A DNA stretch of 64,000 bases from the NCBI RefSeq assembly GCF_014202505.1, contig NZ_JACHGW010000002.1, forward strand, positions 992,001 through 1,056,000, in the 5' to 3' direction. The notes under the pieces are model-generated. The model was not told the origin of the DNA. It did no database searches and saw only the letters and a program-made list of their open reading frames with translations. The position numbers and the translations under genes were made by a program. Below are positions 128 to 44,219 of this stretch, in pieces (within the stretch, counting starts at the first letter, position 1; each line of letters starts with the position of its first letter). This DNA comes from Armatimonas rosea. Lineage in GTDB: Bacteria > Armatimonadota > Armatimonadia > Armatimonadales > Armatimonadaceae.

Positions 128-418
128 ATGCCGAGAGGGGCCCCCCGTCTTCGTACCGAGCAAGATCAACAAAACCTGGTTGGTCCAACTGTCAAAGCCA
201 CCCGAAAGCAGCTTGCCCTGACTCAGGATGCGCTCTGTGCTCGCCTGGCAACGGCCACCTCAGGGCGCTGGAGCCCGACGATCTTCGACATCTACCGAAT
301 CGAGAGCCAGCGGCGCATCGTCTCCGACATGGAACTACTCGCTCTTGCGATAGCTCTGGAGTGTGACCTCTACGACCTGCTGGGTACGACCAAGGAAGCG
401 ACCACTCTCCCAGGTTAA
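128..418 (+). CDS. XRE-family helix-turn-helix DNA-binding protein
   Basis: This 96-residue protein is essentially one Cro/C1-type HTH domain. Residues of about 20-85 fit the five-helix pattern: LALTQDALCARLA for helices 2-3, then IYRIES for the helix 3/4 contact, then a hydrophobic segment that ends in LYDLLG. It has no other domain, so it is probably a repressor for its own promoter or for the neighbouring element genes. It converges on the serine recombinase gene and overlaps its 3' end by 4 bases. The start at 128 is chosen because the alternative frame that begins at 88 encodes only an antisense-like arginine-rich product. The family call is firm and the target is unknown. Confidence 0.75.
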   Translation: MPRGAPRLRTEQDQQNLVGPTVKATRKQLALTQDALCARLATATSGRWSPTIFDIYRIESQRRIVSDMELLALAIALECDLYDLLGTTKEATTLPG

Positions 419-2133
419 GACTGACTTGATTGTGCCGCGACCAACAGATAAGCTACTCGGGACAATTGAGACTCTTGTTTCAAAAGTTTGATTAACGGCT
501 CGTTAGGACTACCAAAAGCGACTTCCGAGATTTCGGGGGTCGTTTTTCCTTTACCAGAGCTACTTTCCACCAGTTTGAACGACTCATTTTCGTCCTCTCT
601 TAGAAAGAAGGGGGCAAGCTCTGGAAGTGGCTCTAGGAGCAGCTTTTTGCCGGTTTGATTCTCGTCCTCTCTCACGAGGATCATGCTCTGCGCAAAGCGG
701 CTCAGGATGCTTTGTTTGATTGTTGGTCCTCCCTCCTCGAAGCGCTGGCGGGCACGTGCTGCGAAACTGATAGTGTCATCCAGTTCTTTCAGTACCGCAC
801 CAATTGGCTTTCCTTGCCCCTGAACCTTCGCGTTTAACTTCACCAGCTCTGCTTGAAGCGACTCTTTCTTTTGCGAGTACTCCTTGGTCGTGATGCCCCC
901 CTCCAAGTGCAGATCCAGTAATCTCTCCAGACCTTTCTGTTTGCGCTCTATTTCTTGCTCAAAGCGCAGACGAGCGTCGGCCTGATCGCTGAGATGTTGC
1001 GGAGCCAGCTCCCGAATCATCTGCTTGAGCATCGCTTCCATGCCCTCAGGCAACTCCGCCCTGGCAAGGAAGGCGAGAACCTGGTCTTCCAGTGCCTCCT
1101 CCCGAACCCCGGTTCGGTCACAGGTTTTGTGGGCATTGGTGCAGTGGTAGTAAACATGCCCCTTGGCGCGGCTGGCAGTGACCATCGAGCCGCAGCGTCC
1201 ACAACGAATCATCCCCCTCAGGACAAACTCGTGCTTGCGGCGGCGAGAAACTCGGCCCCGTCCGAAGATCGCTTGCACCTTGTCGAACTCATCTTCAGAG
1301 ATCATGGGAGTGTGAATTCCTGGGTAGGTCGTGTCCTTGAAACGGCACTGCCCCATGTAGAAGGGATTCCCAAGCACTTCATAAAAGCGTTTGGCGGAAA
1401 TGGGCCTTGCTGGATGCTTCTTGTAGGGGCGGCAGCGGTAACCCCATGTATCGTTGAGGGTATCAAGTACCTTTACCGGGGGCACTCCCAGCAGAATGAG
1501 ATCGAAGGCTTTTCGCAGAAGGGGAAAGCGCTCGAGGTCTTCAATGACGCTTTTGCGCCCCGTGACGGGGTCACGGTAGTTCAGATACCCCTCAGGGGCA
1601 CGGGAGAGCCACTGCCCTTCGGCGCGGCGGGTGATGAACTTCTCGGTGACTTCGTGCGAGAGCTTGTCCACGTAGTATTTTGCCTGGGAGAAGATCATGG
1701 AGAGCATAAACTTACCCTCAGGCGAGTTCTCAAAGTTGTAGCCGGAGCCAAAGCATATATCCGCAAGCTTCTTCCTATCCAGTAGATCAAGCACTCGCCC
1801 ACCATCCACAGCGTTGCGAGCGAGTCGGTCGGGATGCCAGGTAAGGATTCCCTCCGCTTCCCCCGCCTCAATGCGCCGTACCATCTCCATGAACTTCGGG
1901 CGATTGTCAGCGAGCTTGGCAGAGCGGGACTCCTCAATCGTCTCAACTATCTGTATGCCACGCTCAGTAGCTAGCTTTCGGCAGATACTGATCTGATCGT
2001 TGATGCTGTAGAGCTGCTTATCTTCCCGGTCAGTAGATTTACGGGCATAGAGGAAGTAGCGCGGGGCACCTCTATGGCTCGAAGGGGCGGCTTTCCTGGT
2101 CGTCGGGGATACTTTCCTGGTCGTGGCGTACAT
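415..2133 (-). CDS. Large serine recombinase (resolvase/invertase superfamily)
   Basis: The 572-residue protein has the layout of a large serine integrase. An N-terminal resolvase domain begins YFLYARKSTD, the usual Y-x-R-x-S motif with the nucleophilic serine near residue 34, and contains the conserved WHPDRLARN. A recombinase domain follows at about residues 185-290 (SAKRFYEVLGNPFYMGQ), then a zinc-ribbon at about residues 315-350 with CGRC and a later pair of cysteines, then a coiled-coil tail. Such enzymes carry out integration and excision of mobile elements by a 2-base staggered cut at attP and attB. No matching att core was found beside it. It could be the integrase of an element nested in this region, because the tRNA scar at 44979 suits a tyrosine integrase better. 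Confidence 0.93.
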   Translation of the reverse strand: MYATTRKVSPTTRKAAPSSHRGAPRYFLYARKSTDREDKQLYSINDQISICRKLATERGIQIVETIEESRSAKLADNRPKFMEMVRRIEAGEAEGILTWHPDRLARNAVDGGRVLDLLDRKKLADICFGSGYNFENSPEGKFMLSMIFSQAKYYVDKLSHEVTEKFITRRAEGQWLSRAPEGYLNYRDPVTGRKSVIEDLERFPLLRKAFDLILLGVPPVKVLDTLNDTWGYRCRPYKKHPARPISAKRFYEVLGNPFYMGQCRFKDTTYPGIHTPMISEDEFDKVQAIFGRGRVSRRRKHEFVLRGMIRCGRCGSMVTASRAKGHVYYHCTNAHKTCDRTGVREEALEDQVLAFLARAELPEGMEAMLKQMIRELAPQHLSDQADARLRFEQEIERKQKGLERLLDLHLEGGITTKEYSQKKESLQAELVKLNAKVQGQGKPIGAVLKELDDTISFAARARQRFEEGGPTIKQSILSRFAQSMILVREDENQTGKKLLLEPLPELAPFFLREDENESFKLVESSSGKGKTTPEISEVAFGSPNEPLIKLLKQESQLSRVAYLLVAAQSSQS

Positions 2134-18640: not shown

Positions 18641-18734
18641 CTCCGCTCTCGTTTCCCCAAATCCCCGGGCCATGCTGCCCGGTGACGGGAAGTTCATGGC
18701 TCGGACCTTTTTCGTATTGAAAGGAACCAAACCC

Positions 18735-19103
18735 ATGAACTTGGACGAGGCGAGGCAACTCGCCAACGTCAACGAGCGGGCGCAGCGACTCTTCGAGGAC
18801 GGATACCGAATCCGCTCCCTCGACGGGAACCTGCACCTGATCCGTAAGCAGCACGGAGCCACGTACACCCTGGATCGAGCCGAAAAGAGCTGCACCTGTC
18901 CGTTCTTCACCAAGAACAGTGGGCGCTACTCCTGCAAGCATTTTCTGGGATTCAAGAAGCTCGTCCTGTCTCAGCGCTTCCACTTAGCAACTCTCAGCGC
19001 ACGCTGGGAGGCTGAGGAGCAAGCGGCCACCATCGAGCAGGTGTTCCTGAGCGCTTCTCGCGTCCTGTCTGCCCGTCTGGAGGTACCACTTTGTCTCTCC
19101 TAA
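18735..19103 (+). CDS. SWIM zinc-finger protein
   Basis: The 122-residue protein contains the SWIM pattern C-x-C-x(n)-C-x-H, here CTCPFFTK...YSCKHFLGF near residues 55-78. SWIM domains bind zinc and mediate DNA or protein contact. The start at 18735 (MNLDEARQ) is preferred to 18672 because GAAAGGAACC lies just upstream, matching the ribosome-binding sites of neighbouring genes. No catalytic domain is attached. The role in the element is unknown. Confidence 0.75.
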   Translation: MNLDEARQLANVNERAQRLFEDGYRIRSLDGNLHLIRKQHGATYTLDRAEKSCTCPFFTKNSGRYSCKHFLGFKKLVLSQRFHLATLSARWEAEEQAATIEQVFLSASRVLSARLEVPLCLS

Positions 19104-19294
19104 CGATCTCCCGCTACAAAGGCGGGAGGCATTGGGCAGTCCGAGAAGCTGACACGGGCACCATCGTTGTCGTGGCGGTCTACCGAAAGGGCGCTGCCGA
19201 AGTCGTGCGACGGCTTACGGGACAAGTCCCAGAGCCAACCAAGCGCAAACGGCGCGAGACCTTCGTCTATGAAGCAAAGGGAGAAACCACATGA
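19091..19294 (+). CDS. Small hypothetical protein (TTG start)
   Basis: This is a 67-residue product starting with TTG inside the 3' end of the SWIM gene and ending with ATGA overlap into the next gene. It begins ISRYKGGRHWAVREADTGTI and has a basic tail. It is not recognised. Tight overlap on both sides supports it. Confidence 0.5.
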   Translation: MSLLTISRYKGGRHWAVREADTGTIVVVAVYRKGAAEVVRRLTGQVPEPTKRKRRETFVYEAKGETT

Positions 19295-19584
19295 GCGTCT
19301 ATCAGCGGCCCATCAAGTTCTCTCTGGGCAAGGTCTATGTCACCACTGCCGCAGTCGAGGCCCTGATCCGTAACGATGAGGAGCTGATGCACCTACTCAA
19401 GCGGCATCGAGAAGGCGACTACGGCGCGGAGATGTGCTACGACGACCGAGTCGTAAACGAGGAGTCTATCAAGCGCGGTGGACGTGTTCTCTCAAACTAT
19501 ACGCTCAAGGATAAGACAGTCATCTGGATCATCACAAGCGCAGGCTGGCAAGAGACGGTCGCAATGGTCAGGGAGGAGTACTGA
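19291..19584 (+). CDS. Small plasmid-type protein, paralogue of 16603-17004
   Basis: The 97-residue protein reads LGKVYVTTAAVEAL, then LLKRHREGDYG, then a GGRVLSNYTL turn and VIWIITSAGWQETV. Short proteins of this pattern are widespread on plasmids and mobile elements and are sometimes wrongly labelled as restriction subunits. It aligns with the 133-residue protein at 16603. Its start overlaps the previous gene by four bases and its stop is 1 base before the next start. Confidence 0.65.
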   Translation: MSVYQRPIKFSLGKVYVTTAAVEALIRNDEELMHLLKRHREGDYGAEMCYDDRVVNEESIKRGGRVLSNYTLKDKTVIWIITSAGWQETVAMVREEY

Positions 19585-19585
19585 G

Positions 19586-20044
19586 ATGAACCTGGCCGAC
19601 CCCACGGATGAGGCGGGAGTCATCTTCCTGAGCCTCACCGATCAGGTCTTCACCTTCACTGACGCGACCGGCACACAGTGGCACTGGAACGCGAGCGCAG
19701 GAATGCGGCTTGTGGAGCAGACCCCCCGGTCTCCACGAGAGTTCTGGCCGAGCGAGCACGGGATAGACCTGGCGCACCTTCGGGAGCGCTACGCCGATCT
19801 CGATGAAGAGCATGCAAAGACAGTCGATCTGTCCAAACCCATTCTCTTCATTCCCTTTAAGGGTGGCACTTCGGTGCTGATCGACGGATGGCACCGCCTG
19901 TACCGAGCGGTCTCTGAGGGAGTGGACTGGTTGCCTTGCTACGAGCTCACCCCACAAGAAGCCGAGCAGGTGCTCGTCATGAAGATTCCGCCACGCCCCA
20001 AGCTGGCACCGATGGAAACCAAGAAAGGACCGCGAAAGCCTTGA
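19586..20044 (+). CDS. ParB-nuclease-like small protein with intact DGWHR motif
   Basis: The 152-residue protein starts at 19586, after a GGAGG in the preceding gene's end. It contains LIDGWHRLYRAVSEG near residues 105-120, which resembles the D-G-x-H-R core of ParB/DGQHR-like domains. The family is usually small and of unknown role. The next gene encodes a clear paralogue in which this motif has been lost, so the two were duplicated in tandem. The stop overlaps the next TTG start. Confidence 0.6.
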   Translation: MNLADPTDEAGVIFLSLTDQVFTFTDATGTQWHWNASAGMRLVEQTPRSPREFWPSEHGIDLAHLRERYADLDEEHAKTVDLSKPILFIPFKGGTSVLIDGWHRLYRAVSEGVDWLPCYELTPQEAEQVLVMKIPPRPKLAPMETKKGPRKP

Positions 20045-20502
20045 AACCAGTTACTTTGACTCCTCCTGGAGTCACTGACCGGGAGGCGCTTATCGCCTCC
20101 AAGATAGAGGAGTACGGAGCCTTTGGCGACGTGATCCTCAGGGAGGATCTCTTCGGCCATACCTACCTGTGGAACGTTGGGCACGCCGCCCATATCGTCA
20201 CCACAAGCAAGAGGCCAGAGAGCCCACTCACTCTAGCGGACTACGGCATTACGGAGGAGCTTTGTCGGCAGTGGCGACCTGACATGGACGAGGAGCGGGC
20301 TATGAGCCTTGACCTCTCCGTACCGCAGATCATCGCAATGCTGGAAGATCGCACGGTGATCCTGTGCTGCTGGATGCGGCTTTTCAGAGCAGTCAGGGAG
20401 GGAGTCCTAGAGCTTCCCGCCTACTGGCTCAGTGCCGAGGATGCGGAAGGCTGTCTGGTCTTTCACCTTGCACCCGAACAATCGGAAGGAGAGGAACCGT
20501 GA
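20041..20502 (+). CDS. Paralogue of 19586-20044 with degenerate motif
   Basis: The 153-residue protein starts at TTG 20041 (TTGA overlap, with GAAAGGA upstream). It can be aligned with the preceding protein along most of its length: TYLWN for WHWN, MDEERAMSLDLS for LDEEHAKTVDLS, and MRLFRAVREGVLELPAY for HRLYRAVSEGVDWLPCY. The D-G-x-H residues of the sister protein are replaced by LCCWM, so the presumed active or binding site is gone. It could be a regulatory partner of its sister. Confidence 0.6.
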   Translation: MKPVTLTPPGVTDREALIASKIEEYGAFGDVILREDLFGHTYLWNVGHAAHIVTTSKRPESPLTLADYGITEELCRQWRPDMDEERAMSLDLSVPQIIAMLEDRTVILCCWMRLFRAVREGVLELPAYWLSAEDAEGCLVFHLAPEQSEGEEP

Positions 20503-21056
20503 AGAAGACACTGGATCAGCGCTTCGAGCTGGAAGACAGCAAGCAGCGTAAGGCCGACTGTCGGGTGCGGGTCTTCGTGCCTGTCCCTGACGAAGAAATG
20601 TCCGATGCGGTCGTTCTGGTGAGTTGGTCTCCCTCAGAGCCCGATTTCCCTACCGGCCCCTGGCTGGAGACCATCGTATCCGGTTTCCGTGGTGGCCTAG
20701 CCGACGTGCAGAGTGAGCTGGACTTCCTGCTCATAGAGCACTACGTAGGTCGCAAGTACCAGATGGGCAATGTCCTGATGGACTTCGATGAGGAGCTGGG
20801 ACTGGTACTCTTCAAGAACACCGTTCCCAACTGCAACAGCCCCGCCACCAACTTACGGGTTGGCAAGAGGAAACCCAAGGCGGCAGACAATGCCCCTGCG
20901 GTACGCGAGCGTCGCCTGCTCCACTGGACTCCCCTTTGCCGCGAGGCAGTCGAGGACGTGGTGGGCGAGTCGTTGGATGCTCCAGAACCTCCAGCAATGC
21001 TCACCGATAGCTCGGGGGTCATCTACACAGTTCAGGAGAGGTTAGTAGCAGTATGA
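20499..21056 (+). CDS. Hypothetical protein, last gene of the DUF932 operon
   Basis: The 185-residue protein is read from GTG 20499, which overlaps the previous stop (GTGA) behind a GGAGAGG ribosome site. No domain is recognised. It has a central acidic segment (VLMDFDEELGLVLF) and a basic linker (GKRKPKAADN). An intrinsic terminator lies 70 bases downstream and closes the operon. Confidence 0.5.
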   Translation: MKKTLDQRFELEDSKQRKADCRVRVFVPVPDEEMSDAVVLVSWSPSEPDFPTGPWLETIVSGFRGGLADVQSELDFLLIEHYVGRKYQMGNVLMDFDEELGLVLFKNTVPNCNSPATNLRVGKRKPKAADNAPAVRERRLLHWTPLCREAVEDVVGESLDAPEPPAMLTDSSGVIYTVQERLVAV

Positions 21057-21249: not shown

Positions 21250-21642
21250 CTACTTAGTTCCGCTGGGCTTATGAGCAGGGAGCTTCCACGGCTGCCTTGA
21301 GAGGCGCCATCCGTTTTGCTGCATTTCTTCAATCATTTTCCGCATAGACTCTTGCCCACGTTTCTGATCCTCTTTGCCCTGCTTGGAGTTGAGGTACCAC
21401 TGATACTGTGGGGAGGCAAAATATGCTTTCGCAGCTCTCTCCTTACGTTCCACTTCCTGCTCCAGGTGCCTGATGCCGAAGAAGATAAACAGACAGAAAA
21501 TCACAAATAGCCATCCCGCCACTTGCCAGCAGCCACAACCCGAAGAGGGCGCTGATCGTGGGGAGGTAGTACGTGGCGTGGGGGCAGCAGGTGGAAGAAA
21601 GCCGCTTGGCATATAGAACTCGTCATCATTTTGTTTGCTCAT
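21250..21642 (-). CDS. Small single-pass membrane protein
   Basis: The 130-residue protein starts at 21642 behind GAAAGGATC; an upstream start would run into the preceding gene. A disordered proline/serine-rich N-terminus leads to one membrane helix (WQVAGWLFVIFCLFIFFGI) near residues 40-60 and a charged helical C-terminus. It overlaps the replication-relaxation gene by 4 bases and is the last gene of the conjugation-type operon. It may anchor an element protein at the membrane. Confidence 0.5.
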   Translation of the reverse strand: MSKQNDDEFYMPSGFLPPAAPTPRTTSPRSAPSSGCGCWQVAGWLFVIFCLFIFFGIRHLEQEVERKERAAKAYFASPQYQWYLNSKQGKEDQKRGQESMRKMIEEMQQNGWRLSRQPWKLPAHKPSGTK

Positions 21643-22610
21643 GGGAGAGATCCTTTCGTTATTGCGGGAGGTAGGAGTGGTACAAGTGCCGCCTGATTGG
21701 GCTGTTGCCAAAGAGGGGCACTCCAGACGCTGGGAGATAAATCGGAGGCAACCACGAGATAGAAGTGCTGGGCGATACCGCTCTCGCCGGTAATGTCCCC
21801 TATCTGCGCGGCTAGGGAGTCGCGGCGCACGGCATCAGGAACCGTCACAATGACACGGGTGCGAGTGGTACCCAGCACCGCCGGAATCAGGGAGGGGGTG
21901 GCAAAGAGGCCGTAGTAGCCCAATACCTTCTCCCGCCAGCGAGTCACCCCCCGCTCTGTTCCCCGATCCACTTCGACAAAGGCACTCAGCTTTCTCCCAG
22001 GGGCAAGGCTCCCCAACCCCACCTGAAACCAGGCGTCGGGATGTAGCTCACAGGCAGAGGTGCTCTGTGTCGCAGGGAGGGTCAGATATGCTTCTTTGGC
22101 CTCGTGCCACTGAGCAGGCTCGCTTTCCCAGATGCGGCGGCTCTGCTCCAGCCACACAAATACATCACGAATCGCCAGCTCATGGGCCAGATAGAACGAG
22201 TTGCGCGGACCGTACTTAGGCGACTGCCTCTCACGTTGCTCCTTGGAGATCAGCCCCCCTTCGAAAAGGAGATTGCGCCCATCCCGAGTGAGAACATAGA
22301 GATTTGGAGCCGAGCCAAAGAGCAAGGAGGAATCATTTATCGCCTCGCTGCCTGTCAGGGCAAGTCGTGAGACAGCGATCACGTCCAGTAGACCAGCGTC
22401 ATAAAGGGCACGGGTGTGTCCACGAATCGCCTTCTCAGGGGCCGGAAGCAGGAGTGCCAGCTGCTTGGCGGTGAGAACCCTCTGCTCGGCCAGGTAGCGT
22501 AAGATCGCGAGTCGGCGCGGTGTGACCTGCACTCGCTGCCCCTGCTCCTGACACCGTTCAAAACGCTTTCGCCGTGGGCGCGGCGCTTCCTGTTTAGATG
22601 CTTCCATCAT
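21639..22610 (-). CDS. Replication-relaxation family protein
   Basis: The 323-residue protein begins with a winged helix (TPRRLAILRYLAEQRVLTAK, then GHTRALYDAGLL) followed by a nuclease-like fold: LYVLTRDGRNLL, LAHELAIRDVFVWLE and SAFVEVDRGTERG. This is the pattern of the replication-relaxation family found on plasmids and integrative elements, thought to take part in initiation of element DNA transfer or replication. It overlaps the upstream VirD4-like ATPase gene by 17 bases. The ExD-like residues in FVEVDRGTE could be catalytic. Confidence 0.8.
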   Translation of the reverse strand: MMEASKQEAPRPRRKRFERCQEQGQRVQVTPRRLAILRYLAEQRVLTAKQLALLLPAPEKAIRGHTRALYDAGLLDVIAVSRLALTGSEAINDSSLLFGSAPNLYVLTRDGRNLLFEGGLISKEQRERQSPKYGPRNSFYLAHELAIRDVFVWLEQSRRIWESEPAQWHEAKEAYLTLPATQSTSACELHPDAWFQVGLGSLAPGRKLSAFVEVDRGTERGVTRWREKVLGYYGLFATPSLIPAVLGTTRTRVIVTVPDAVRRDSLAAQIGDITGESGIAQHFYLVVASDLSPSVWSAPLWQQPNQAALVPLLPPAITKGSLP

Positions 22611-24651
22611 CGTCCTCCTGTGGTGTAGGAATAGGCTTCAGAACCGGCGTATCGCCTGGAGGGACGACTTCTGGTGGTGACGATTTTCGCCTCTGGCGCG
22701 CTGCTGGTCTCTCGTCGGTAGTGGGGGCATTTTCCGGCACGGGCACTTGCTCCTCCATGAGCTGTTTCCTGCGCTCTTCACGCTCCCGGTGATCTTGGGC
22801 GATTCGCTCCGGTGGCTGTCCGCCCGACTGGAGCACCGCGCGAAGATAGGCTTGAAATGGCTCGGAGTCGGTATCAGGCAAATCCGTGTCGAGGGTGCGG
22901 AGTAAATGGACATCCCCATCGAGGTAGGCCGCGATGCTTTGCTTGCCCATCCTTTGGAGCCGCCCCATCCAGAACTCATTTAAATCGCTGATGCTGCGCT
23001 GCTGAACCCGAGGAGTGCCCGGTTGGGGAAACTGAATCACAAGCCGCACCACATCCGATCCGCTGAAGTGAAAGTCTTTCCAAGGAGCGAGACCCTTGAG
23101 GTAGGTTCGGAGCGCGACATTTTGACCCGTGAGGGGGTCACGTGTGTAGAGTCGCAGTATCCCGTGTGCACCGACAATCCTCTCCAGCGCCAGCAAGAGT
23201 ACATTGTCGTCCTGCCCACTAGTGCTGGTCTCGTAAAGATCGGCAAGGGCTACGCGGCGCTGAAAGTCTTCCCAGTCCTCGGAAGAGATTCTGAGCGGCT
23301 CACCCTCGTCATCCAAAACCTCTTGTGTCCAGCTAACTGGCTCTAGTTCGGCTTCGCCACGCCCCCGGCCTGTTGCGCAGTTCACTGTGATAGAGGCAGC
23401 ACTGGGGGCACTTCCTGCTGAGAATGTTGAGGTCACCAGTCGTGCATCTTGAGGCCCGAGCCGGAAGAAAACTCGTGTGGATGCACTGCTCATCAAGCGG
23501 GTCTGAAGCTCGCTGGAGAGCTGGCTGAAGTTCTGGGTGGCGACCTGGAGCCGAAGCCGCTTGGAGCGAGCCAAGGTAACGATGGACTCCAGCACCGAGG
23601 TCGATAGAAAGGGGATCAGTTGACCCAATTCATCTATCGCGAGCACCACAGCACGAGCACCACCATCGGGTTTCTGGAGCATCGCCTGGTAGAGACTATT
23701 GACCAGCAGGCCGCCCAGGAAATGTGCCTCTTTGACCCCAAGCAGAACCTCATCCATGTGGACAACAACGATGCGTTGCTCCTGCCAGAGTAACGGCAAC
23801 GAGAGCGAGTTGGACTGTGCACACAGCAGCGCCCGGAAGTAGCTGGAGTACGATAGGGTCTGGAGCTTGTTCTGAAGCGCGGCGAGGGTCAGGGTCTGGT
23901 CACTCTGAGAGAGCTGTCCAAAGCGGGCAAAGAACTCCCGAATCTGGCTGATAATGAAAGGGTCCGCTGCTTCCACGGGGGCGTGAACCAGTACGTCACG
24001 ATAGCGCGAGTCCCCCAGGCAGTGCATCAGCTCTAGGAGCGACATGTTCCCATGTAAGAAGAGCAACAGGAGCAGGTTCTCAAGGAAGGGCCGCATTCGC
24101 GCTCCCAGTTCCCCAACCAGTCCTTCAAAGAGCGAACTGAACTGCTTGGCCGCCTGAATCGGATTGCGCCCAGGTTCAGCCAGGAACAGATTCCAGCCCG
24201 GTACACCGATGGACTCGAACTGTGGGGCAAGATAGGCAATCTTCTCGGGGGGTATCCCAAGTTCCAAGGCAAGTGCCATGACCTGATGGATCGTATCGGG
24301 CTTGGGGTCGAGCATCACCACAGAATCGCCTTGTTCCAGTTGCTGGCGCAGGAGCGAGAGGTACAGGCGAGACTTGCCCATACCCGACCCTCCCAGGATC
24401 AGAAGATGCCTGTCAGCTACACCCTCTCTGCCGCTGGTTATTCCGATCTTCTCATCCCCTTGCTGCTGCGCCACTAATGCTTCAGGGGGCAATAACTCGG
24501 GGTACTGCTGTCCAAGCCAGGCCCGAAAATAGGGAGTGCTCTTGTGGCGCACTAGTTTGTGGCTAGTAGTACGGATCACTGGGAGTTGCTCGGTCAGCCC
24601 TGTGAGTCGCGTTCCCAGATAGATTCTGGGAGGCATCGAATTATCTTTCAT
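22594..24651 (-). CDS. VirD4/TraD-like ATPase (type IV coupling protein-like)
   Basis: The 685-residue protein has Walker A GGSGMGKS at residues 87-94, preceded by RHLLILG, and Walker B AVVLAIDELGQ near residue 330, followed by ARSKRLRLQVATQNFSQL and an arginine-rich RVFFRLG. That order is typical of FtsK/VirD4-type hexameric DNA pumps of conjugative elements. No N-terminal membrane helices are seen, so it is a soluble coupling-type protein. A disordered proline-rich tail follows residue 640. Together with the replication-relaxation gene it marks the transfer or processing module. No relaxase was recognised in the window. Confidence 0.82.
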   Translation of the reverse strand: MKDNSMPPRIYLGTRLTGLTEQLPVIRTTSHKLVRHKSTPYFRAWLGQQYPELLPPEALVAQQQGDEKIGITSGREGVADRHLLILGGSGMGKSRLYLSLLRQQLEQGDSVVMLDPKPDTIHQVMALALELGIPPEKIAYLAPQFESIGVPGWNLFLAEPGRNPIQAAKQFSSLFEGLVGELGARMRPFLENLLLLLFLHGNMSLLELMHCLGDSRYRDVLVHAPVEAADPFIISQIREFFARFGQLSQSDQTLTLAALQNKLQTLSYSSYFRALLCAQSNSLSLPLLWQEQRIVVVHMDEVLLGVKEAHFLGGLLVNSLYQAMLQKPDGGARAVVLAIDELGQLIPFLSTSVLESIVTLARSKRLRLQVATQNFSQLSSELQTRLMSSASTRVFFRLGPQDARLVTSTFSAGSAPSAASITVNCATGRGRGEAELEPVSWTQEVLDDEGEPLRISSEDWEDFQRRVALADLYETSTSGQDDNVLLLALERIVGAHGILRLYTRDPLTGQNVALRTYLKGLAPWKDFHFSGSDVVRLVIQFPQPGTPRVQQRSISDLNEFWMGRLQRMGKQSIAAYLDGDVHLLRTLDTDLPDTDSEPFQAYLRAVLQSGGQPPERIAQDHREREERRKQLMEEQVPVPENAPTTDERPAARQRRKSSPPEVVPPGDTPVLKPIPTPQEDDDGSI

Positions 24652-25818: not shown

Positions 25819-27156
25819 TCAGACTTCTTGCGTTCGAACGGCTTGCTGAAGTCGCTCGCGTGCCAGCTCGCTCGTCACCGGGACTCCCTTTTGTATAGCC
25901 GTGACAAAGGCCGCTTGGAGCCCACGTTCGATGTCGCGTGGGGTCATGCCCTCCGAGGCTTTCACCAAGGCTGGGATCGCTTTGCTTTCCGAGATCCATG
26001 CCCCGATGAGTGCGGCGCGGGCTTCAGGACCGGGACGCTGGAAGCTGTAGATTCGGGTGCAACGGCGCTGAACGGCAGGGTCAATCGCGTCGAGTCTATT
26101 AGTCGTCAGGATAATCAGGAAGCGGCCTTTGTCCTGTGTGGGAAGGGCATCCAGGCACTGAAGAATGGTGCTGGTTGCTGCTCGGTCTTCCTGATGGCTG
26201 GCGGACTCGCTTCGGCGCATGACGATGGCATCTGCTTCTTCCAGAATGAGTACCTTCAGACCATCGTCAGGGAGAGCAAGTAGTCCCTCAAAAGCGCGGC
26301 GCACTTCCTGAGAGAACGCCCCCACCAGACCGTTTCCTCGTGTCTCAGTTCCCACTGTCAGTACCGCCCCCGTAATCCCTCGCAGTCGGCAGTAGCTGTC
26401 CGCGATCACCCGTGAGAGAGCGGATTTACCTGTGCCTGGATCACCATTGAAGAGAAAGAGCGGAACGGTACTGGTGAAGGTGGCTTGCATCCCCGGTGGA
26501 AGACTCTGCTGGGTGCGCTCCGCCCACTGCTCCAGTTGCTGGTCGTAGAAGCAGGTCAAGTACCAGAGGACTTCCTGATGGATCGCCTCCATCCCGACCA
26601 GCCGACTGCCCAGGCTCGCCATTTCCTCAGAAGGTAGTGACTGAACCAGGGCATTGCTCGTGGAGTTCTTCTTCCCTCCATCCCCAAAAACTTTCCCACC
26701 GCCCGTGACCATTCGGGTTGAATGGGTCGTTAAGCGCGAGACCGTCGAGCGAGTAGGGGGTGGTTCCTGTCGCTTGGGGAGAAATCCTGAGTGCTCAAAG
26801 TGCGCAAGTCGAATTGGGAGTGTCCCCCGCTCCGATGGCATGGGAGGTTCTCCTGCCAACTCTACGGTGACTGCATAGAGTGGCGGGATACGGAAGGTAA
26901 ACTGGGTTGCTTCAGGCTGCTCGGCGAGTAGCTTTGGCAGTCGCGCTATGATGGTTTCCTTGAGCTTCTCCTGCCAGGCCGCGTCTGCTTGGGCATCCTC
27001 AGTGAGAGTAACTTGTACCTGCCAGTGCGGTGGTAAGGGGACTGTCGCGGGTGGCTCCACACGAAGGCGCGAAGGCACCAGCATAGGTGTGGGTAATGTC
27101 GCTTTCTGCGGTTCGTCTCCAAACAGCAAGCTCTTAACAATTCGTTTTAAACTCAT
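25819..27156 (-). CDS. TRIP13/Pch2-like AAA+ ATPase
   Basis: The 445-residue protein has an N-terminal domain of about 170 residues and then an AAA+ module. It shows Walker A GDPGTGKS at 238-245, Walker B LILEEAD at 303-309, sensor 1 TTNR at 351-354 and a paired arginine RR near 364. Between Walker A and B it has GNGLVGAFSQEVRRAFEG, and after Walker B an ASHQEDRAATSTILQCLDAL segment. Both match the TRIP13/Pch2 subgroup that remodels HORMA proteins better than generic AAA+ proteins. Walker B carries LEEAD in place of the usual IDEAD, which keeps the catalytic glutamate position. A HORMA-like protein is encoded two genes upstream, which supports the assignment. TRIP13-like function is inferred. 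Confidence 0.75.
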   Translation of the reverse strand: MSLKRIVKSLLFGDEPQKATLPTPMLVPSRLRVEPPATVPLPPHWQVQVTLTEDAQADAAWQEKLKETIIARLPKLLAEQPEATQFTFRIPPLYAVTVELAGEPPMPSERGTLPIRLAHFEHSGFLPKRQEPPPTRSTVSRLTTHSTRMVTGGGKVFGDGGKKNSTSNALVQSLPSEEMASLGSRLVGMEAIHQEVLWYLTCFYDQQLEQWAERTQQSLPPGMQATFTSTVPLFLFNGDPGTGKSALSRVIADSYCRLRGITGAVLTVGTETRGNGLVGAFSQEVRRAFEGLLALPDDGLKVLILEEADAIVMRRSESASHQEDRAATSTILQCLDALPTQDKGRFLIILTTNRLDAIDPAVQRRCTRIYSFQRPGPEARAALIGAWISESKAIPALVKASEGMTPRDIERGLQAAFVTAIQKGVPVTSELARERLQQAVRTQEV

Positions 27157-27176
27157 GATCAGGTGTCCTTTCTGTG

Positions 27177-27587
27177 CTAGACATCATTGATATTGAAGAG
27201 ATCGTCGCTCACGTCCGGGGAGATTGGCGGTCTGTAGGGAGGCTGAGGCACTGCCACTTGTGGTGCTGTGTTGGCGGCGAGCGGGCGTACTGCCACAGGA
27301 ATCTGGATATCACCACTATGCGTTCCCATGAGGGCTCGGGAGATGCTAATTTGCAAATCGAGCGCATCCTGGATGGGAGCCAGCCCTTCCTGTGCGAGTA
27401 CCTGAAGTGTGGTCTGCGTCAGCTCTGCCATCTGTCCGGTCAGGTCTTCGCGGACACTGAACCCCTCGCTCTGTCCAGCAGGCACCGAGTAGAACTCCTC
27501 TAGGGTAATATGCCCCATCTGGGTCTTGCCATCTGCCTCCAAGACAATCAGGACAATGGACTGTTGCGATACAGAATCATTTGACAT
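27177..27587 (-). CDS. Small protein between HORMA and TRIP13-like genes
   Basis: This 136-residue protein has a beta-rich start (SIVLIVLEADGKTQMGHI), a helical middle (MAELTQTTLQVLAQEG) and a disordered proline-rich tail ending DVSDDLFNINDV. It is not recognised. Its place between the two genes and the flexible tail make it a candidate client that supplies a closure-motif peptide to the HORMA protein. That is a guess from context. Confidence 0.55.
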   Translation of the reverse strand: MSNDSVSQQSIVLIVLEADGKTQMGHITLEEFYSVPAGQSEGFSVREDLTGQMAELTQTTLQVLAQEGLAPIQDALDLQISISRALMGTHSGDIQIPVAVRPLAANTAPQVAVPQPPYRPPISPDVSDDLFNINDV

Positions 27588-27599
27588 GATATTTTCTCC

Positions 27600-28142
27600 T
27601 TATCGATAGCGGGTGGCATAGTCAGAATCGTAGTCATCGTCGGCCAAAAGAATCCGATCCATCCCATAGCCCCCGCTACCGTAGCTTCCATAGGTGCTCC
27701 TCCTCAAGTTGGCTGGAACGGTCAAGGCAGAAGCACTGCCCCATTTCAGACGGCGGAACCACTCGTCACAGGTGCTCTTGGGAAGATTGGGGTTGCGCTT
27801 AATTACCAGCCTGAGCTGGACATCGGAGGGGAGACTGCTTGGCAACGGAGGACTGTCGGGGGAGGGGCCGCTGGAGCCGCGCCCCTCCTGGAGAATGACA
27901 TAGGCGTACTCACGCACCAGAGTGTTTCCCCGGTAGAACTGGAGGTGGATCGAGGAGATGATGTCATTGAGTGCTAGAAGGGATAGGTCTACAATCGTGT
28001 CGTCTAGGTTGAACGACGGGTTGATGCTTCTCCCCCGAGCAAACTGAGCTATGGTCGCTATCTCCCGCCCCATGTTCGCTATGACTGAGCGGACGTCTGA
28101 GGCAGTAATATTGCGCACCGTGACCTGTGTAGCAGAAGGCAT
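27600..28142 (-). CDS. Bacterial HORMA-domain protein (bacHORMA family 1-like)
   Basis: The 180-residue protein starts at 28142 behind GAAAGGAAA. The layout fits bacterial HORMA proteins: a first helix with DVRSVIANMGREIATIAQ, a DDTIVDLSLLA helix, strands IHLQFYRGNTLV and EYAYVILQEG, a strand VQLRLVIKRN, then the late LKWGSAS and a glycine/tyrosine-rich seat-belt segment ending GYGMDR. In CBASS such proteins bind peptides and activate cGAS-like enzymes, and TRIP13 disassembles them. A TRIP13-like ATPase lies on the same operon, but no nucleotidyltransferase is in the window. Family assignment is by pattern only. Confidence 0.65.
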   Translation of the reverse strand: MPSATQVTVRNITASDVRSVIANMGREIATIAQFARGRSINPSFNLDDTIVDLSLLALNDIISSIHLQFYRGNTLVREYAYVILQEGRGSSGPSPDSPPLPSSLPSDVQLRLVIKRNPNLPKSTCDEWFRRLKWGSASALTVPANLRRSTYGSYGSGGYGMDRILLADDDYDSDYATRYR

Positions 28143-28285
28143 GCTGATGTTTCCTTTCAACAGTTACCGGAGCGGTTTCCCCGCTCCTTACCGGGGCCAT
28201 TACCCCGGTGATTGTCCGTAGGATAGGGGGAGGGGTTTCAACGCTACCAGCAACCCGAGGAGGAAAAATTCAACGCTCACTCAAA

Positions 28286-31261
28286 ATGGAGAGAACGATG
28301 CCGCAGAAAATTCGCCCAACTGAGTCAGAGAATGTTGACTCCTTCTCCTACGCCTTCTTGGGACAGCTGGAGTTCAAGCGTGGCGGTCAGGTGGTAGTGC
28401 CAAAACAGGCTAGGCCCCTCGATCTTGCCCGACTGGGTTACCTTGCCTGGATGGGGGGAAGGTGCTCCGTCAGCACCTTTGCCACAACATGCTTCCCTCT
28501 GGGATCGGGCGGAGCGCGGGATGTCAGTCCGTCTGGTCTGGTCAGCCGCTGGAAGAACCGTGTTTGCTCAGATCTCGGGCCGGTGGTGGCTCGTGAGGGG
28601 CAAGATTTGGTGTTTCCTGTCTCGCCGTCCAACTGTGACCTTATGGCACTGCGCTACATCAGCCTAAAAGAGCGCCCAACACGCCTGGAATTGGAGGCAG
28701 CACTCTCCCCGGTGAATGGGTCGCTGTTTGGCAAACTCGGCGATGGGCGCAACGACGACTCACCTTTTGTTGTCGAGCTAAGGACGAAGGTTGGTGAGTG
28801 GTATACCGACCTACTCGCCCGGCTTCTGACCGAATTTCTCCCTGTCGATCCTGAGGCAGTACGCCAGTTTCTCCTGCGTCGCCGGGACGAAGTGCAGGAG
28901 CCACAACCCGAGCTGAGTGCGGCACTGGCAGTGGCTCTGCTCTTTGTACAAGAGCGCCAGACAGCAGAAAACCTGCTGGTTGAGCGCCACCCAGCACAGA
29001 TGAAAGCTCATGGGATAGAGGACTTCATCAAGGAGCAGCTCCCTAAACTGGAGCAGAACTGGATCGAGTCGCTGACACGGGCAGTCCAAACTAACCTTGC
29101 CACCCATGCCTATCTGAGAGCTCATAAGTCCCGCCAGCAACAGCGGCTCATTGGGCGTCAGGTTCCCCCAGTGGCTCGCCGTGTCTTGCAGGAGCGCGTG
29201 TTATGTCTGGTCGGGGCGGCAGGAGTGGGAAAAACTGCCCTGAGTCTCGAAGTCGCCTACGAGCTGCTCTCACACTTTAAAGGGGCCTTTTTCGCAACCC
29301 TCCGCACGCTTCATCAGATCGCAGAAATCTGGCAGGAGCTGGGAGAACAGCTCAAGCTCACCTGTCGAGACGATGGTAACTGGGAGGGAACAGTACGCAC
29401 CTACTTGCGTGGCTCTACTACTCTCCTGGTTCTTGATAACTGTGAACAGATTCCTGGGATAGCAGCGATCATCCTCTCCCTCCAAGAGGAGTGCCCGCAA
29501 CTCTCCCTGCTGGCGACTTCGCGGATTCCACTGGATGGAATTCAAGCACTTGTTGTCGAGCCACTCAGTGACACCGATACTGAAGCACTTCTCAAGCGCA
29601 CTCTGCGGCGGCTCGTAGATCGGGGCGAGCTTCCTGAGAACTGGCAGGCACTGAAAGAACTCCACGGTGGGATTCCCCTGCTGATTGAAGCCGTCGCAGG
29701 TGCGCTCCAATACGCCAGCGTGGATCAGCTCTTGGACATTGGCCCTTGTCCTTTTGCAGCCATTGACGATGACACGGAAGCTCGTCGGCTTTGGTGGATG
29801 TATAGCTGCCTCAGCAAGCAGGAAAAGCAACTCTTTCGTTTTTTGGGCTTACCCGTTCTGAGCTTTGATGGGGAGCTGGTTCAAGTGCTACTTGGCGACG
29901 AGTATGATGGGTATCAGTCCATGCGGGTTCTGAAGCGGCTGTTAACTCGTCAGCTTGTACATTCGGAGCCTGAAGAACCGGATGGGGCGCGTTGGTACTA
30001 CCTCCTCCCCCCGGTTCAGCGGCTGGCACAAGCCCTGCTCAAACAGGCCCCAGCAGAGATGGCACTTGGTGAGAAGCGCTGTGCTCACTACTACGAACGG
30101 CTAGCATATTCCCTTGAAGATCCCGAAGAAGGCACGGATTTTAAGCGTGAACAGCATCTCCGAACCCTGCGTCGGCTTGATCGCCTGTGGGACGACACCC
30201 GTCTGGCACTTGCCTGGTGGCAGAACTCTGGCCGGGAAGACAAGGACATAGCGGCTCAGGGAGTGGAGTTTGCTATAAATCTCACCACCTTCTGGGAGCA
30301 GCGCCAGCTCTGGCGCGAGGGGGAGTTGTGGCTGCGGAGAATGCGCAATGGTTTACAGGCACTACCGCCTGACGTCGAAGCTCGTCGCCTGACTGGACTG
30401 GGCAATATGCTCCTGCGCCTCGGTCAGCGCAAGGAATCGCGTGAGTGTAAAGAGCAAAGTCTTACCCTCTACCGAGAGCTGGAAGACCATGTTCAGATAG
30501 GGGTTTTGCTCTCAGACCTGGGCGCGGTCGCCTTTGAAGGAAGTGAGCTAGAGACGGCGCACCTCCATCTGACCGAGGCCGTCGAAGTGCTCCGCCGACA
30601 CCGCTACGTAAGCATCCGTGCCGAGGTGGGCTATGCAAAGGCAATCAACAACTTGGGGATGACTTGGGGGCTGCTTCAGGGAGACTTTGATAAAGCCTGT
30701 GAGTACCTGCGCGAGAGCCTCCAGCTTAAGCACGATAGGCTGGCAACTGCCGGAAGCCTTGGGGAAACCCTGCTGAACCTGGCAGTGATGACTGGCCGTT
30801 TGGGTGAATTTGCAGAAGCGATGAGCTATCTGGATCAGGCAGAAACGCTCTTCATTGAGTCTGGGATGCAGTGGGCAGTAGCCTACGTGGTCTGTGGACG
30901 CGGCGATATCTGGTGTCGGACAGGAGCACTCGATCAGGCAGAGGCGGCCTTCCACCAAGCAGCGAAGAGCTTGTGGGAACTTAGGGACAAGAAATCGATT
31001 GCCTCGTGCGTCGAGGGCCTTGTACAAGTTGCGGCACATAAGAACGATTGGAGGTATGTTACTCGACTCTGGGCCGTGGCTGAGTGGCTACGGCAAAGGT
31101 ACAAGTCTCCCCGTTTTCCGGTGGATCAGGTGGAATTCGAGCAGCTCTTAAGGCAGGCAGAGGATGCTTTTCAAGGAACCTTTTCCACAGACATGTCCTC
31201 AGACTCACTATCGGAAGTGGTGTTTGCTGGGTTGCCGGGTATACTTTTGGCTGATGTCTGA
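28286..31261 (+). CDS. wHTH-STAND (NB-ARC-like) ATPase-TPR regulator
   Basis: The protein is about 991 residues from the start at 28286; 28208 and 28298 are also possible. 28286 is preferred because the divergent HORMA gene lies close. The N-terminus resembles a SARP-type winged helix (YAFLGQLEFKRGG). A STAND ATPase has Walker A GAAGVGKT at 310-317, Walker B TLLVLDNCEQ near 388, LLATSR and GIPLLIEAVAG. TPR-like helices fill the last 350 residues (for example ETLLNLAVMTGRLGEFAEAM). Its last 8 bases overlap the DUF4007 gene, so it heads the modification-island operon and probably senses and activates it. Confidence 0.8.
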   Translation: MERTMPQKIRPTESENVDSFSYAFLGQLEFKRGGQVVVPKQARPLDLARLGYLAWMGGRCSVSTFATTCFPLGSGGARDVSPSGLVSRWKNRVCSDLGPVVAREGQDLVFPVSPSNCDLMALRYISLKERPTRLELEAALSPVNGSLFGKLGDGRNDDSPFVVELRTKVGEWYTDLLARLLTEFLPVDPEAVRQFLLRRRDEVQEPQPELSAALAVALLFVQERQTAENLLVERHPAQMKAHGIEDFIKEQLPKLEQNWIESLTRAVQTNLATHAYLRAHKSRQQQRLIGRQVPPVARRVLQERVLCLVGAAGVGKTALSLEVAYELLSHFKGAFFATLRTLHQIAEIWQELGEQLKLTCRDDGNWEGTVRTYLRGSTTLLVLDNCEQIPGIAAIILSLQEECPQLSLLATSRIPLDGIQALVVEPLSDTDTEALLKRTLRRLVDRGELPENWQALKELHGGIPLLIEAVAGALQYASVDQLLDIGPCPFAAIDDDTEARRLWWMYSCLSKQEKQLFRFLGLPVLSFDGELVQVLLGDEYDGYQSMRVLKRLLTRQLVHSEPEEPDGARWYYLLPPVQRLAQALLKQAPAEMALGEKRCAHYYERLAYSLEDPEEGTDFKREQHLRTLRRLDRLWDDTRLALAWWQNSGREDKDIAAQGVEFAINLTTFWEQRQLWREGELWLRRMRNGLQALPPDVEARRLTGLGNMLLRLGQRKESRECKEQSLTLYRELEDHVQIGVLLSDLGAVAFEGSELETAHLHLTEAVEVLRRHRYVSIRAEVGYAKAINNLGMTWGLLQGDFDKACEYLRESLQLKHDRLATAGSLGETLLNLAVMTGRLGEFAEAMSYLDQAETLFIESGMQWAVAYVVCGRGDIWCRTGALDQAEAAFHQAAKSLWELRDKKSIASCVEGLVQVAAHKNDWRYVTRLWAVAEWLRQRYKSPRFPVDQVEFEQLLRQAEDAFQGTFSTDMSSDSLSEVVFAGLPGILLADV

Positions 31262-32189
31262 TTTTCCCACCCCGGCAACCTTCTCAGGACACGAGACGTT
31301 TACTTTCCGTTACCCTTGGCTCAAAAAAGGCGTAGATGGTGTTAGGGCGGACTCGGCGATTTTTCAGCGTGATGAGGCAATTGTCAAGCTGGGAGTCGGG
31401 AAGAATATGGTGACCTCGATCCGGCACTGGTGCCTGGCGACGGGAATGATCCAGGAGAAAAAGCCTGACAAGGAGCGGCGGCGTATGCTGGAGCGTTCGG
31501 AGCTGGGAACCCGCCTTCTTTCTGATAATGGCTGGGATGCTTATCTAGAGCGTGAGGCTACCCTCTGGCTACTTCACTGGCAACTTGTGACGAATCCGAA
31601 CCGAGCTACTACGTGGCATGGGGCATTTCATCTGTTTAACGAGCCGGAATTTACCCGTAAGAGTTTGGCGAATTTTCTGATGCGTTTGGCTGAGGAGAAG
31701 AACTGGGGGCGGGTGTCGCCGGGAACAGTGGAGAGCGATGTGGCGTGTTTCATCCGAACCTACGTGCCAGTGAAACGGGGCGTGACCTCGACCCAAGAAG
31801 ACACGCTAGACTGCCCGCTGACAGAGCTGGCGCTGCTCCAGATGATTCCTGGCGACAAAGACGAAGACCATCGTTATCGGTTTCAGACACGCCCCAAGCG
31901 CGGCTTGTCGCCTGCGATCTTTGCCTACGCGCTGGCGAGCTTCTGGGAGCAGCACTACCCGAACCAGGGCACGTTGAGCCTGCGGGAGATTTTGCACGGC
32001 GCGGGAAGTCCTGGCCGGGCGTTCCGGCTCGACGAGCAGAGCGTCTTGAACTATCTTGATGCGCTATCTGAGGCGACGGGTGGGGCACTGGGATTTGAAG
32101 ACACGGCGCTGATTCGTCAGGCGGTGCGAGTGCGGACGGTTCATCCGTTGGAGATTTTGGAGAGGTTCTATGTCAAAGCCGCTGTCTGA
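31254..32189 (+). CDS. DUF4007 protein, associated with Dnd-type islands
   Basis: The 311-residue protein starts at 31254, overlapping the regulator stop. It begins FSGHETFTFRYPWLKKG, then RDEAIVKLGVGKNMVTSIRHWC, then a long helical region with LWLLHWQLVTN and TWHGAFHLFN. This pattern defines DUF4007, a family recurrent beside phosphorothioation-type genes and of unknown activity. The first domain looks like a winged helix, so it may bind DNA. It overlaps the ATPase gene by 20 bases. Confidence 0.82.
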   Translation: MSDFPTPATFSGHETFTFRYPWLKKGVDGVRADSAIFQRDEAIVKLGVGKNMVTSIRHWCLATGMIQEKKPDKERRRMLERSELGTRLLSDNGWDAYLEREATLWLLHWQLVTNPNRATTWHGAFHLFNEPEFTRKSLANFLMRLAEEKNWGRVSPGTVESDVACFIRTYVPVKRGVTSTQEDTLDCPLTELALLQMIPGDKDEDHRYRFQTRPKRGLSPAIFAYALASFWEQHYPNQGTLSLREILHGAGSPGRAFRLDEQSVLNYLDALSEATGGALGFEDTALIRQAVRVRTVHPLEILERFYVKAAV

Positions 32190-35100
32190 GTTAGTTGTTT
32201 TACGACGGCGGTTCTTGCGGTCAGTGAGTTTGGAGCGGGATGCACGAAGCCGCACGGGGCTAGATGGCTACATTCCAACCGCCACCGCGCTGACGGCTCG
32301 CGCTCGCATCGAGGCCGGGCTGGCCGACCCGTCGTCACGTGCCGTGAGTATCACAGGAGCCTACGGCACCGGAAAATCGGCGTTCGCGCTCTACCTAGTG
32401 CATCAGCTTTGTCTTGCGCCGCACGGAGAAAAGTCTGAAGGGTTATTACCGGTTCTGGTGACGGGCGGACGGGAACCGCTGATTCCGGCACTCTATCGTG
32501 CCTTGGAAGCCGCTGTGTCCGGTCAGCCTTCGCTGGAGGCCCCATCACTCACTGCGCGGGAACTGGCCGAGCAGTTTGGTAGTAAGGCAAAGGAAGCAAA
32601 AAAGCGAATTCCGGGTTGTCAGGGGCTTCTGGTGGTCGTGGACGAGCTCGGGAAGTTTCTGGAGTTCGCAGCAGATCACCCGAATGAGAGTGACCCATTG
32701 GCTTTGCAGGAGCTTGCCGAGCTTGCCACCCGCTCCGAAGTGCCGATTCTCGTTGTCACAGTTCTACATCAAGCGTTCGATGAGTACGCCCAGTCGCTCG
32801 GCACGGTTCGACGGGCAGAGTGGCAGAAGGTGCAGGGGCGCTTCCTTGATATTCCGTTCGGGGATGGTGCTGAAGAGACTGTCCGACTTATCGGGGAAGC
32901 CTTTGAAGGCGAGGTTCCGAAAGCCAAGCCTCGTGCGAAGCGCCAGGTGAAAGCGGCTCGTGCGCTCAATATCGTACCGCGCTCATTGGACACTGACGAC
33001 GAGGCTACAGCCGTTTTCCTTGGGGCGAGTGCGCTTCACCCGCTTACCCTGCTGGCGCTCCCTCATGTCTTTAAGCGGTTTGGTCAGAGCGAGCGGACGC
33101 TCTTTTCTTTTCTCAACTCCGACGAGCCACAGGGGTTCGGCGCGTTTCTGCGAAATCATGGCCCCGAAGCGCAGTTCCGGCTCGATGCGGTCTACGACTA
33201 CGTTTTCGCGACGCTGGCTTCTACTATTTACTCGATGCCAGGTTACAGTAAGCTCTGGAGTCAGATTCAGGAAGCTGTCTCTCGTTGCGAAGGACGCGGC
33301 GATCTCCTTGAAGCGCGAATCGTCAAGACAGTCGGGGTTCTGCATCTTCTGGGCGATTCAGCTAGGCTCCCCGCCTCTGCTGGTGTGATTGCTTTTGCCC
33401 TTGAGGAGATCGCTTCTGTTGACGAAGTGACGGCGGCGCTTGAGCGGCTGACTCGTGCCACCATCCTGACTTTCCGGGTGTTCAAGAATGCCTACCTGCC
33501 CTACGAAGGGAGCGATATTGATGTAGACGAGCGCTTGGGGGTCGCACGAGCGGCGCTCGGCAACATCGCTTCTCCCGCATCGGTCGTCGCCAAACGGATC
33601 GCGCTCTCTCCGGTGATCGCGCGGCGGCATTCCTATGTGTACGGAGTCCTTCGCTTCTTCGAGATGCAGCTCTGCACGCCCGAGGAGCTGTCGAAAGCAA
33701 TTACGAAGGAACCTGCTCACGCTGACGGCAAGCTCGTGCTTTGCTTGGCGACTGAGAAAGCCCAGCAAGAGACTAGTGTTGCGCTGGCACAGTCTCTGAC
33801 CACCGAGCGTCCGCATGTGGTCGTGGCGGCGTGCCTGGTCGGCGAGACGCTGAACGAGGCGGCCCTAGCGGTCGAGGCGCTGGCTTGGGTTCAGGACAAT
33901 ACACCGGAGCTGAGTCAGGATTCCATCGCGAAACGCGAAGTCGCCGAGCGCCACCGTGAGGCTATGCAGGCGCTTGAAGCGCACTGGGAAGGGCTGCTCA
34001 CGCCTGAGTCGTCCACCGTTTTTGTGTGGGTGGGCGAGCCACGTACAGGCGACCTTCAGCCGCTGCTCTCGAATGCTTTTGATGCTGCGTTCCACCTCTC
34101 GCCGATCATTCGCAACGAGCTGCTCAACCGTCGTAATCTTTCGTCCACAGCAGCGGCGGCGCGGCGCAATCTGATCGAGGCAATGATTGTGCGGAGCGAT
34201 CAGGAGAACCTTGGGATTACAGGCTTTCCTGCGGAGCGGATGATGTACGATACGCTCCTGAAAGCTACTGGGCTTCACGGCTTACACAGAGCGAGCGGTG
34301 AGTACGACTTTCTGACGACCAAGCCAACAGACCTAACTATCCGTCCGACGTTGAAGGCCATCGAAGACTATTTGCTCGGTGGTGATCTGACTCCGAAACC
34401 GGTGATAGGGCTTTACTCTCTTCTCCAGAAACGGCCTTACGGATTGACGGAGGGAGTTGCCCCGCTCCTTATGATTCTGGCGTTGCTTCGCTGGGAAGAT
34501 GAGATCCTGCTCTACCGAGCGAGCGAGTTGATTCCTCAGTTTGATGCCCCCACAGCAGAATGGCTTCTACGTCGCCCTCAGGACTACACCGTTTTGGGAA
34601 TTCGGATGAGCGGTGAACGTCAGGCAGTAGTCCAGCGCTTCGCCAGAACGCTTCTTCGGCCCAAAGAAGGTCATACCCTGGTGAACATCACCCGCCGTCT
34701 GTACGGGTGGTATCGTCGCCTGCCCCACTACACACGGGTGACATTGCGACTGAGTGCGAGAGCAAAAGCTTTGCGTGAGAACTTCAAGGAGGCGAAAAAC
34801 CCCGAACAGCTCTTCTTTGTCGAGATGCCTCGAAGTCTCGGAGTACGACCTTTCACGGCGAGTTCCGATGATGAGAACGTCGAGACGTTTTTTGCAGCCT
34901 GGGGCGAGGTTAATACTGAAATCACGGGAGCCTATGATGCGTTGCTGAAGCGACTGGAAAAAAACCTTCTGGATGCGTTTGAGGAGTCCGAGGTAGACGA
35001 TGTTCGTCAGCGGGCACGGGCACTGGAGGGGCGTGTTCTGGAGCGCCGACTGATTGGGTTCGTTACAAGGTTGTCGGAGCCGTCTTTGGAGGGAAACGCT

Positions 35101-36371: not shown

Positions 36372-36381
36372 CCTTCCATAA

Positions 36382-36996: not shown

Positions 36997-37006
36997 CAAA
37001 CGTAGA

Positions 37007-44216: not shown

Positions 44217-44219
44217 GTC

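Follow-up and report, generated by a model that had tools for sequence, protein, structure and literature searches.

A HORMA and TRIP13 gene pair with no detectable cyclase upstream of VirD4-like and Replic_Relax genes in Armatimonas rosea

Bacterial HORMA proteins and TRIP13-type ATPases have been described, in the literature that we found, together with CD-NTases in CBASS. In this type of system, the HORMA protein associates with the CD-NTase, and TRIP13 takes the active complex apart again (PMC10419184); a thresholding role has been attributed to the pair (PMC7159879). A sequence-only reading of the 64-kb stretch of DNA analyzed here (the window) reported a HORMA- and TRIP13-like pair within a transfer-type operon, between a VirD4-like ATPase and a divergent STAND regulator, and suggested that it might be a new HORMA-controlled system. 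A literature search of partial coverage turned up no account of a bacterial HORMA-TRIP13 system that lacks a cyclase. Analyses were performed on the window, on the 6.3-Mb genome from which it derives (G000; 98.2% complete), and on related elements.

Components of the operon

The genes lie on the minus strand between 21.2 and 28.1 kb in the transcription order HORMA, X, TRIP13, Y, VirD4-like, Replic_Relax (Table 1). Gaps of only 12, 20, and 37 bases separate the first four genes; two transcripts are possible, as approximately 360 bases part Y from the VirD4-like gene.

TABLE 1. Features of the locus, in positions of the window
Feature	Coordinates	Strand	Length	Basis or remarks
HORMA-domain protein (predicted)	27600..28142	(-)	180 aa	PF18138, PADLOC HORMA, hhalign, fold search
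X, no recognized family, proline-rich tail	27177..27587	(-)	136 aa	Between HORMA and TRIP13
TRIP13/Pch2-type AAA+ ATPase	25819..27156	(-)	445 aa	PADLOC TRIP13, PDB matches, ATPase motifs
Y, charged, probably coiled-coil, conserved C-terminal segment	25011..25781	(-)	256 aa	In all six elements
VirD4/TraG-like DNA-translocating ATPase	22594..24651	(-)	685 aa	NCBIfam, Pfam; orthologues in six elements
Replic_Relax (PF13814) protein	21639..22610	(-)	323 aa	HTH and conserved domain; 17-base overlap with VirD4-like gene
Protein with one hydrophobic stretch, operon end	21250..21711	(-)	153 aa	No homologue found in sister elements
SARP/STAND-TPR regulator, divergent	28208..31261	(+)		NB-ARC and TPR matches; 65 bases from HORMA
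Large serine recombinase, candidate integrase of element backbone	415..2133	(-)		Resolvase, Recombinase, and zinc-ribbon domains

The product of the first gene, whose reading frame has an alternative TTG start at 28160, matched PF18138 (bacHORMA_1) over profile positions 12 to 165 of 169 with a score of 24.4 bits (E=2.9e-5), which is below the gathering score of 35.6, and matched the PADLOC HORMA model at E=3e-5. Profile-profile comparison (hhalign) with eight CBASS HORMA proteins gave a probability of 94.7% (P=5.7e-8; 153 columns), while the neighboring protein X, utilized as a negative control, scored 0.06%. When an AlphaFold model was compared by Foldseek with 350,542 chains, ranks 1 to 14 were all HORMA proteins, the top match being the HORMA protein of E. 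coli MS115-1 (E=2.3e-3, probability 0.87, TM score only 0.29); as the model was of low confidence (pLDDT 42) and the TM scores were about 0.3, this search counts as support and not as proof. The equally poor model of X returned nothing. Chance resemblance of a weakly conserved protein that happens to lie beside a generic AAA+ ATPase would account for the subthreshold Pfam score, for the poor model, and for the failure of a second copy (on contig C9, described below) to match the Pfam model alone. This explanation is highly improbable, as independent profile, profile-profile, and fold comparisons concur, negative controls included, and the adjoining ATPase is specifically TRIP13-like. With these comparisons in agreement, the gene is predicted to encode a bacterial HORMA protein, as the sequence-only reading had held.

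For the AAA+ protein, the PADLOC TRIP13 model gave E=3.3e-47, and the best matches among solved structures were 6p8v (E. coli TRIP13; E=1.6e-23) and 6pb3 (Rhizobiales Pch2). This ranking ruled out a generic AAA+ ATPase of the FtsH, p97, or partition type, so that the earlier assignment to the TRIP13 type stands and a grouping with another clade was not observed. The Walker A motif, the catalytic Walker B Glu, the sensor 1 Asn, and the Arg fingers are all kept. The Arg that ends the sensor-2-like SDIRxRL motif of CBASS ATPases is changed to Gly or Ala in both copies present in this genome and, hence, the behavior of the ATPase could differ. The nearest relatives of the ATPase were CBASS ones, and the TRIP13 tree, for which outgroups were poor, was consistent with the two copies forming a pair of their own next to the CBASS clade. 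The N-terminal region is partly conserved between the window and C9 copies (E=1e-8). A long N-terminal extension was also seen in a CBASS TRIP13 protein of Nostoc plasmid pNPM2 (L061 5599-6879), unlike in the other seven proteins aligned.

No match to X was detected in Pfam, PADLOC, NCBIfam, or PHROG. A homologue is present in the C9 copy (z=15.6 versus shuffles), X was not found in the HORMA-less elements, and the gene occurs only together with HORMA and TRIP13. A p31comet-like HORMA identity for X was rejected, there being no profile similarity and no match to its low-confidence model. Y was found to be longest in the HORMA-bearing elements. The VirD4-like protein matched a CD1115-type VirD4-like NCBIfam model at E=6e-9 (below the cut-off), DUF87/HerA at E=3e-6, and TraG-D_C at 3e-4, and it also resembled the mads_8 ATPase of PADLOC (E=3e-13). 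The Replic_Relax protein scored 60.4 bits against PF13814 (cut-off, 25.3) and matched PHROG 9381, 'replication initiation by nicking', at E=1e-9; together with residues that are invariant in six copies (PDAW...VExDRGTERG...EK), this match suggests that the protein may cleave DNA. The 153-aa protein, for which no homologue was found in the sister elements, is probably outside the operon core. Domain matches bore out both neighbors named for the pair, the VirD4-like ATPase and the divergent SARP/STAND-TPR regulator.

Search for a cyclase and comparison with type III CBASS

Searches for a cyclase were negative at every level. No SMODS match was obtained anywhere in the genome at E<=0.1, a profile built from eight HORMA-linked cyclases found nothing in the genome at E<=1, and tblastn with seven cyclases detected none in the window or in contigs C9 and C10 (best E, 0.67). 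The same tblastn recovered, as positive controls, the cyclases of L080 (annotated as hypothetical) and L078 (frame-broken and unlisted) at E 1e-110 or better. The reported lack of a CD-NTase in the 64 kb was, therefore, confirmed and extends to C9, C10, and the genome. In the L078 locus (2029-2962; Bradyrhizobium guangzhouense plasmid), the CBASS cyclase beside HORMA was itself found to be split over two frames and unannotated.

Nor did Pfam, PADLOC, or NCBIfam reveal a nucleotide-activated effector (NucC, SAVED, or others) in the operon, and PADLOC found no complete system among its genes. By the missing defining cyclase, the unit would not be classed as type III CBASS. Type III CBASS consists of a CD-NTase, HORMA (Cap7), TRIP13 (Cap6), and an effector; it shares with the window unit homologous HORMA and TRIP13 genes in the same transcription order. 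The window unit differs in having no detectable CD-NTase or known effector, in an extra N-terminal region of TRIP13, in the coupling to Y, VirD4-like, and Replic_Relax genes, and in the position of X, which parts HORMA from TRIP13. In all of the inspected plasmid relatives of the ATPase (16/16), the cyclase was directly before HORMA, and HORMA and TRIP13 were adjacent.

A second copy and related elements

A search of the genome with the ATPase detected one further locus, on contig C9, with the order HORMA-X-TRIP13-Y, one extra gene, and then VirD4-like and Replic_Relax, which is otherwise the order of the window. The extra gene (L011 12819-13346), seen in the second copy only, encodes a 175-aa protein of no recognized family. 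Protein identities between the two copies were approximately 26% for HORMA, 35% for X, 41% for TRIP13, 31% for Y, 33% for VirD4-like, and 38% for Replic_Relax. Third codon positions were saturated (0.71 to 0.77 different), while second positions differed less (0.35 to 0.47); the order and all six genes have thus been maintained over a long divergence. There are exactly two TRIP13-type genes in the genome, both upstream of a Y-VirD4-Replic_Relax core. As the six-gene order recurs on a second contig, the pair does not lie near the VirD4-like gene by chance. Phylogenies of the VirD4-like proteins and of the Replic_Relax proteins did not settle whether the HORMA-bearing copies are sisters. No terminal overlap was detected for C9 or C10, so that these contigs were not shown to be circular plasmids.

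These findings bear on the explanation that the locus is a CBASS operon stripped of its cyclase and effector, or one served by a cyclase encoded elsewhere in the genome, with the VirD4-like and Replic_Relax genes as mere neighbors. While the nearest relatives of both HORMA and TRIP13 are indeed CBASS components, two copies with saturated silent sites nonetheless agree in gene order and in their non-CBASS neighbors, HORMA and TRIP13 are parted by X in each copy and not directly adjacent as in CBASS, and no cyclase was found in the genome, though the assembly may be incomplete. We regard this explanation as very unlikely.

Profile searches of 291 genomes of the phylum detected the Y-VirD4-Replic_Relax genes in four further elements, one on contig C10 of the same genome and the others in genomes G039, G015, and G038. 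None of these four loci carried HORMA, X, or TRIP13. Across the 291 genomes, the PF18138 and TRIP13 profiles found only the two loci of this genome; two further genomes gave TRIP13 scores of approximately 75 bits, the level of generic AAA proteins, compared to 343 to 349 for the two TRIP13 copies. The cyclase-free HORMA-X-TRIP13 unit was thus found in one genome, in two copies. As four elements keep the Y-VirD4-Replic_Relax genes without HORMA, X, and TRIP13, these three genes constitute an optional, separable cassette upstream of the DNA-processing operon of the element. Pattern scans of viral contigs for TRIP13, HORMA, VirD4-like, and Replic_Relax were empty, an absence that is weak evidence because such scans need short, near-exact peptides. 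Scans of genome contigs, with the same need for near-exact peptides, found no TRIP13 and, for Replic_Relax, only three MAG loci that were already known.

Upstream of Y in G038, the place of the cassette is filled by a SARP and STAND-WD40 gene pair, which represents another type of NTPase switch. Genes of the SARP/TPR type were also seen next to the C9, G015, and G038 copies. The STAND regulator remarked on beside the pair is a genuine neighbor, but as a feature of the element family at large it does not mark out the HORMA copies. A SARP-type protein paired with a large STAND ATPase recurs at 5753-11367 of the window, 8199-12958 of C9, 12511-17276 of C10, and 4175-9624 of L048. The L048 pair, whose STAND protein has WD40 repeats, lies directly upstream of Y-VirD4-Replic_Relax, where the window has HORMA-X-TRIP13. 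Genes for an Mrr-like nuclease, a YdjM-like hydrolase, RepO-like proteins, and a serine recombinase are partly common to the window, C9, and C10, and a distant homologue of the serine recombinase of the window was found near the C10 copy. Between window 17214-21056 and C10 46097-50211, flanking genes are 77 to 88% identical, but identity drops to 32 to 39% in the VirD4-like and Replic_Relax genes next to them. Flanks this similar abutting genes this divergent suggest that the operon has been exchanged as a module, with an abrupt border near 21.1 kb.

Possible output and regulation of the operon

A self-transmissible conjugative element would be recognized by a MOB relaxase and a VirB4-type ATPase. 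The relaxase search, which covered the VirD2-type family only (PF03432), gave no match in the genome, and VirB4 (PF12846) gave one match in the genome, on contig C3, that was below the cut-off. Self-transfer is, therefore, unsupported, and the description of the operon as one for transfer is the weaker part of the sequence-only reading. Its function may instead lie in replication, DNA processing, or mobilization, and we consider replication, mobilization, and intracellular DNA pumping to be as likely as self-transfer. Plasmid and ICE modules that combine a VirD4/TraG-like ATPase with PF13814 Replic_Relax are similar in placing Replic_Relax beside a coupling-type ATPase; the window unit differs from them in carrying the HORMA cassette and Y and in belonging to a genome where neither a VirD2-family relaxase nor a VirB4 match above the cut-off was found.

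These absences, the match of the VirD4-like protein to HerA-type DUF87, and the indications of replication given by Replic_Relax and PHROG 9381 would fit a role of HORMA and TRIP13 in maintenance of the element (partition, copy number, or an addiction-like function), the VirD4-like protein being a HerA/FtsK-type intracellular DNA pump. The integrated copy, in a 1.5-Mb contig, has no obvious need of partition, and we consider such a role unlikely.

Defence against phages or plasmids is a further explanation, in which HORMA would sense foreign DNA or protein and license an attack by the VirD4-like protein and a nuclease-like Replic_Relax protein, with TRIP13 as the off switch. Bacterial HORMA and TRIP13 are known from defence (PMC10419184, PMC7159879), an Ssp-like modification operon is also present in the window, the VirD4-like protein has the resemblance to mads_8 noted above, and the invariant Replic_Relax residues could be nuclease-like. 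Against this, PADLOC recognized no complete system among the operon genes, and the Y-VirD4-Replic_Relax core exists without the cassette and, in the window and C10, accompanies a serine recombinase and shared element genes; hence, the basic role of the core looks centered on the element. We consider defence unlikely, though less so than the maintenance role.

The reading that we prefer, with a confidence falling a little short of an even chance, is that a cyclase-free HORMA/TRIP13 switch gates the Y, VirD4-like, and Replic_Relax machine of integrative elements of Armatimonadota. HORMA would close on a client peptide, probably in X or Y, to form an active complex. The TRIP13 hexamer would reopen HORMA and so keep the complex inactive, pending an overriding signal such as DNA or entry into a new cell. 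Downstream, Y, the VirD4-like ATPase, and the Replic_Relax protein would form the gated machine, in place of the cyclic-nucleotide synthase of CBASS, and would handle the DNA of the element itself by replication, nicking, or mobilization. X and Y would be the most probable clients: X is found solely alongside the HORMA/TRIP13 pair, and Y heads the shared core and reaches its greatest length in the HORMA elements. Several points count against this reading: the unit is known from a single genome, two transcripts are possible, the ATPase could differ in behavior, no VirD2-family relaxase or VirB4 match above the cut-off was detected, and the core manages without the switch in the cassette-free copies. 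The suggestion of a new HORMA-controlled system has, accordingly, held in part: there is indeed a cyclase-free pair, and its association with the VirD4-like gene recurs, while the control is something that we infer from operon structure and knowledge of the families.

Several eukaryotic HORMA/TRIP13 switches act on DNA-linked machines. Those of Mad2, Rev7, and the HORMADs with TRIP13/Pch2 resemble the window unit in combining HORMA with a TRIP13 remodeller without a cyclic-nucleotide synthase; the window unit differs in that its HORMA is of the bacterial type and no p31comet was recognized (X is without HORMA similarity). A broader proposal, which we advance only tentatively and which may well not hold, is that a HORMA/TRIP13 switch independent of cyclic-nucleotide immunity gates a DNA-translocating and DNA-nicking machine of a mobile element and corresponds, in bacteria, to the HORMA switches with which eukaryotes act on DNA. 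If this is true, HORMA/TRIP13 would be a portable regulatory module in bacteria, maintained and duplicated without a cyclase on a DNA-processing operon; the locus would offer a simple system for finding a HORMA client and its closure motif; and the finding would bear on the origin of the DNA-acting HORMA switches of eukaryotes.

Other features of the window were also recorded. Ssp/Dnd-like phosphorothioation genes at 31164-38296 encode SspB/DUF4007, a 1,107-aa AAA protein, SspD, a GIY-YIG protein, and DndB; neither SspA nor SspE was noticed among them, no dedicated search having been made. A second, inverted DndB gene with a gene for a GIY-YIG-like protein lies at 42978-44699. The stretch at 11385-15560, which encodes secreted-looking proteins of 1,178 and 212 aa, is AT rich (approximately 36% GC around 12 to 16 kb versus 56% in the flanking DNA) and is probably a recent insertion.
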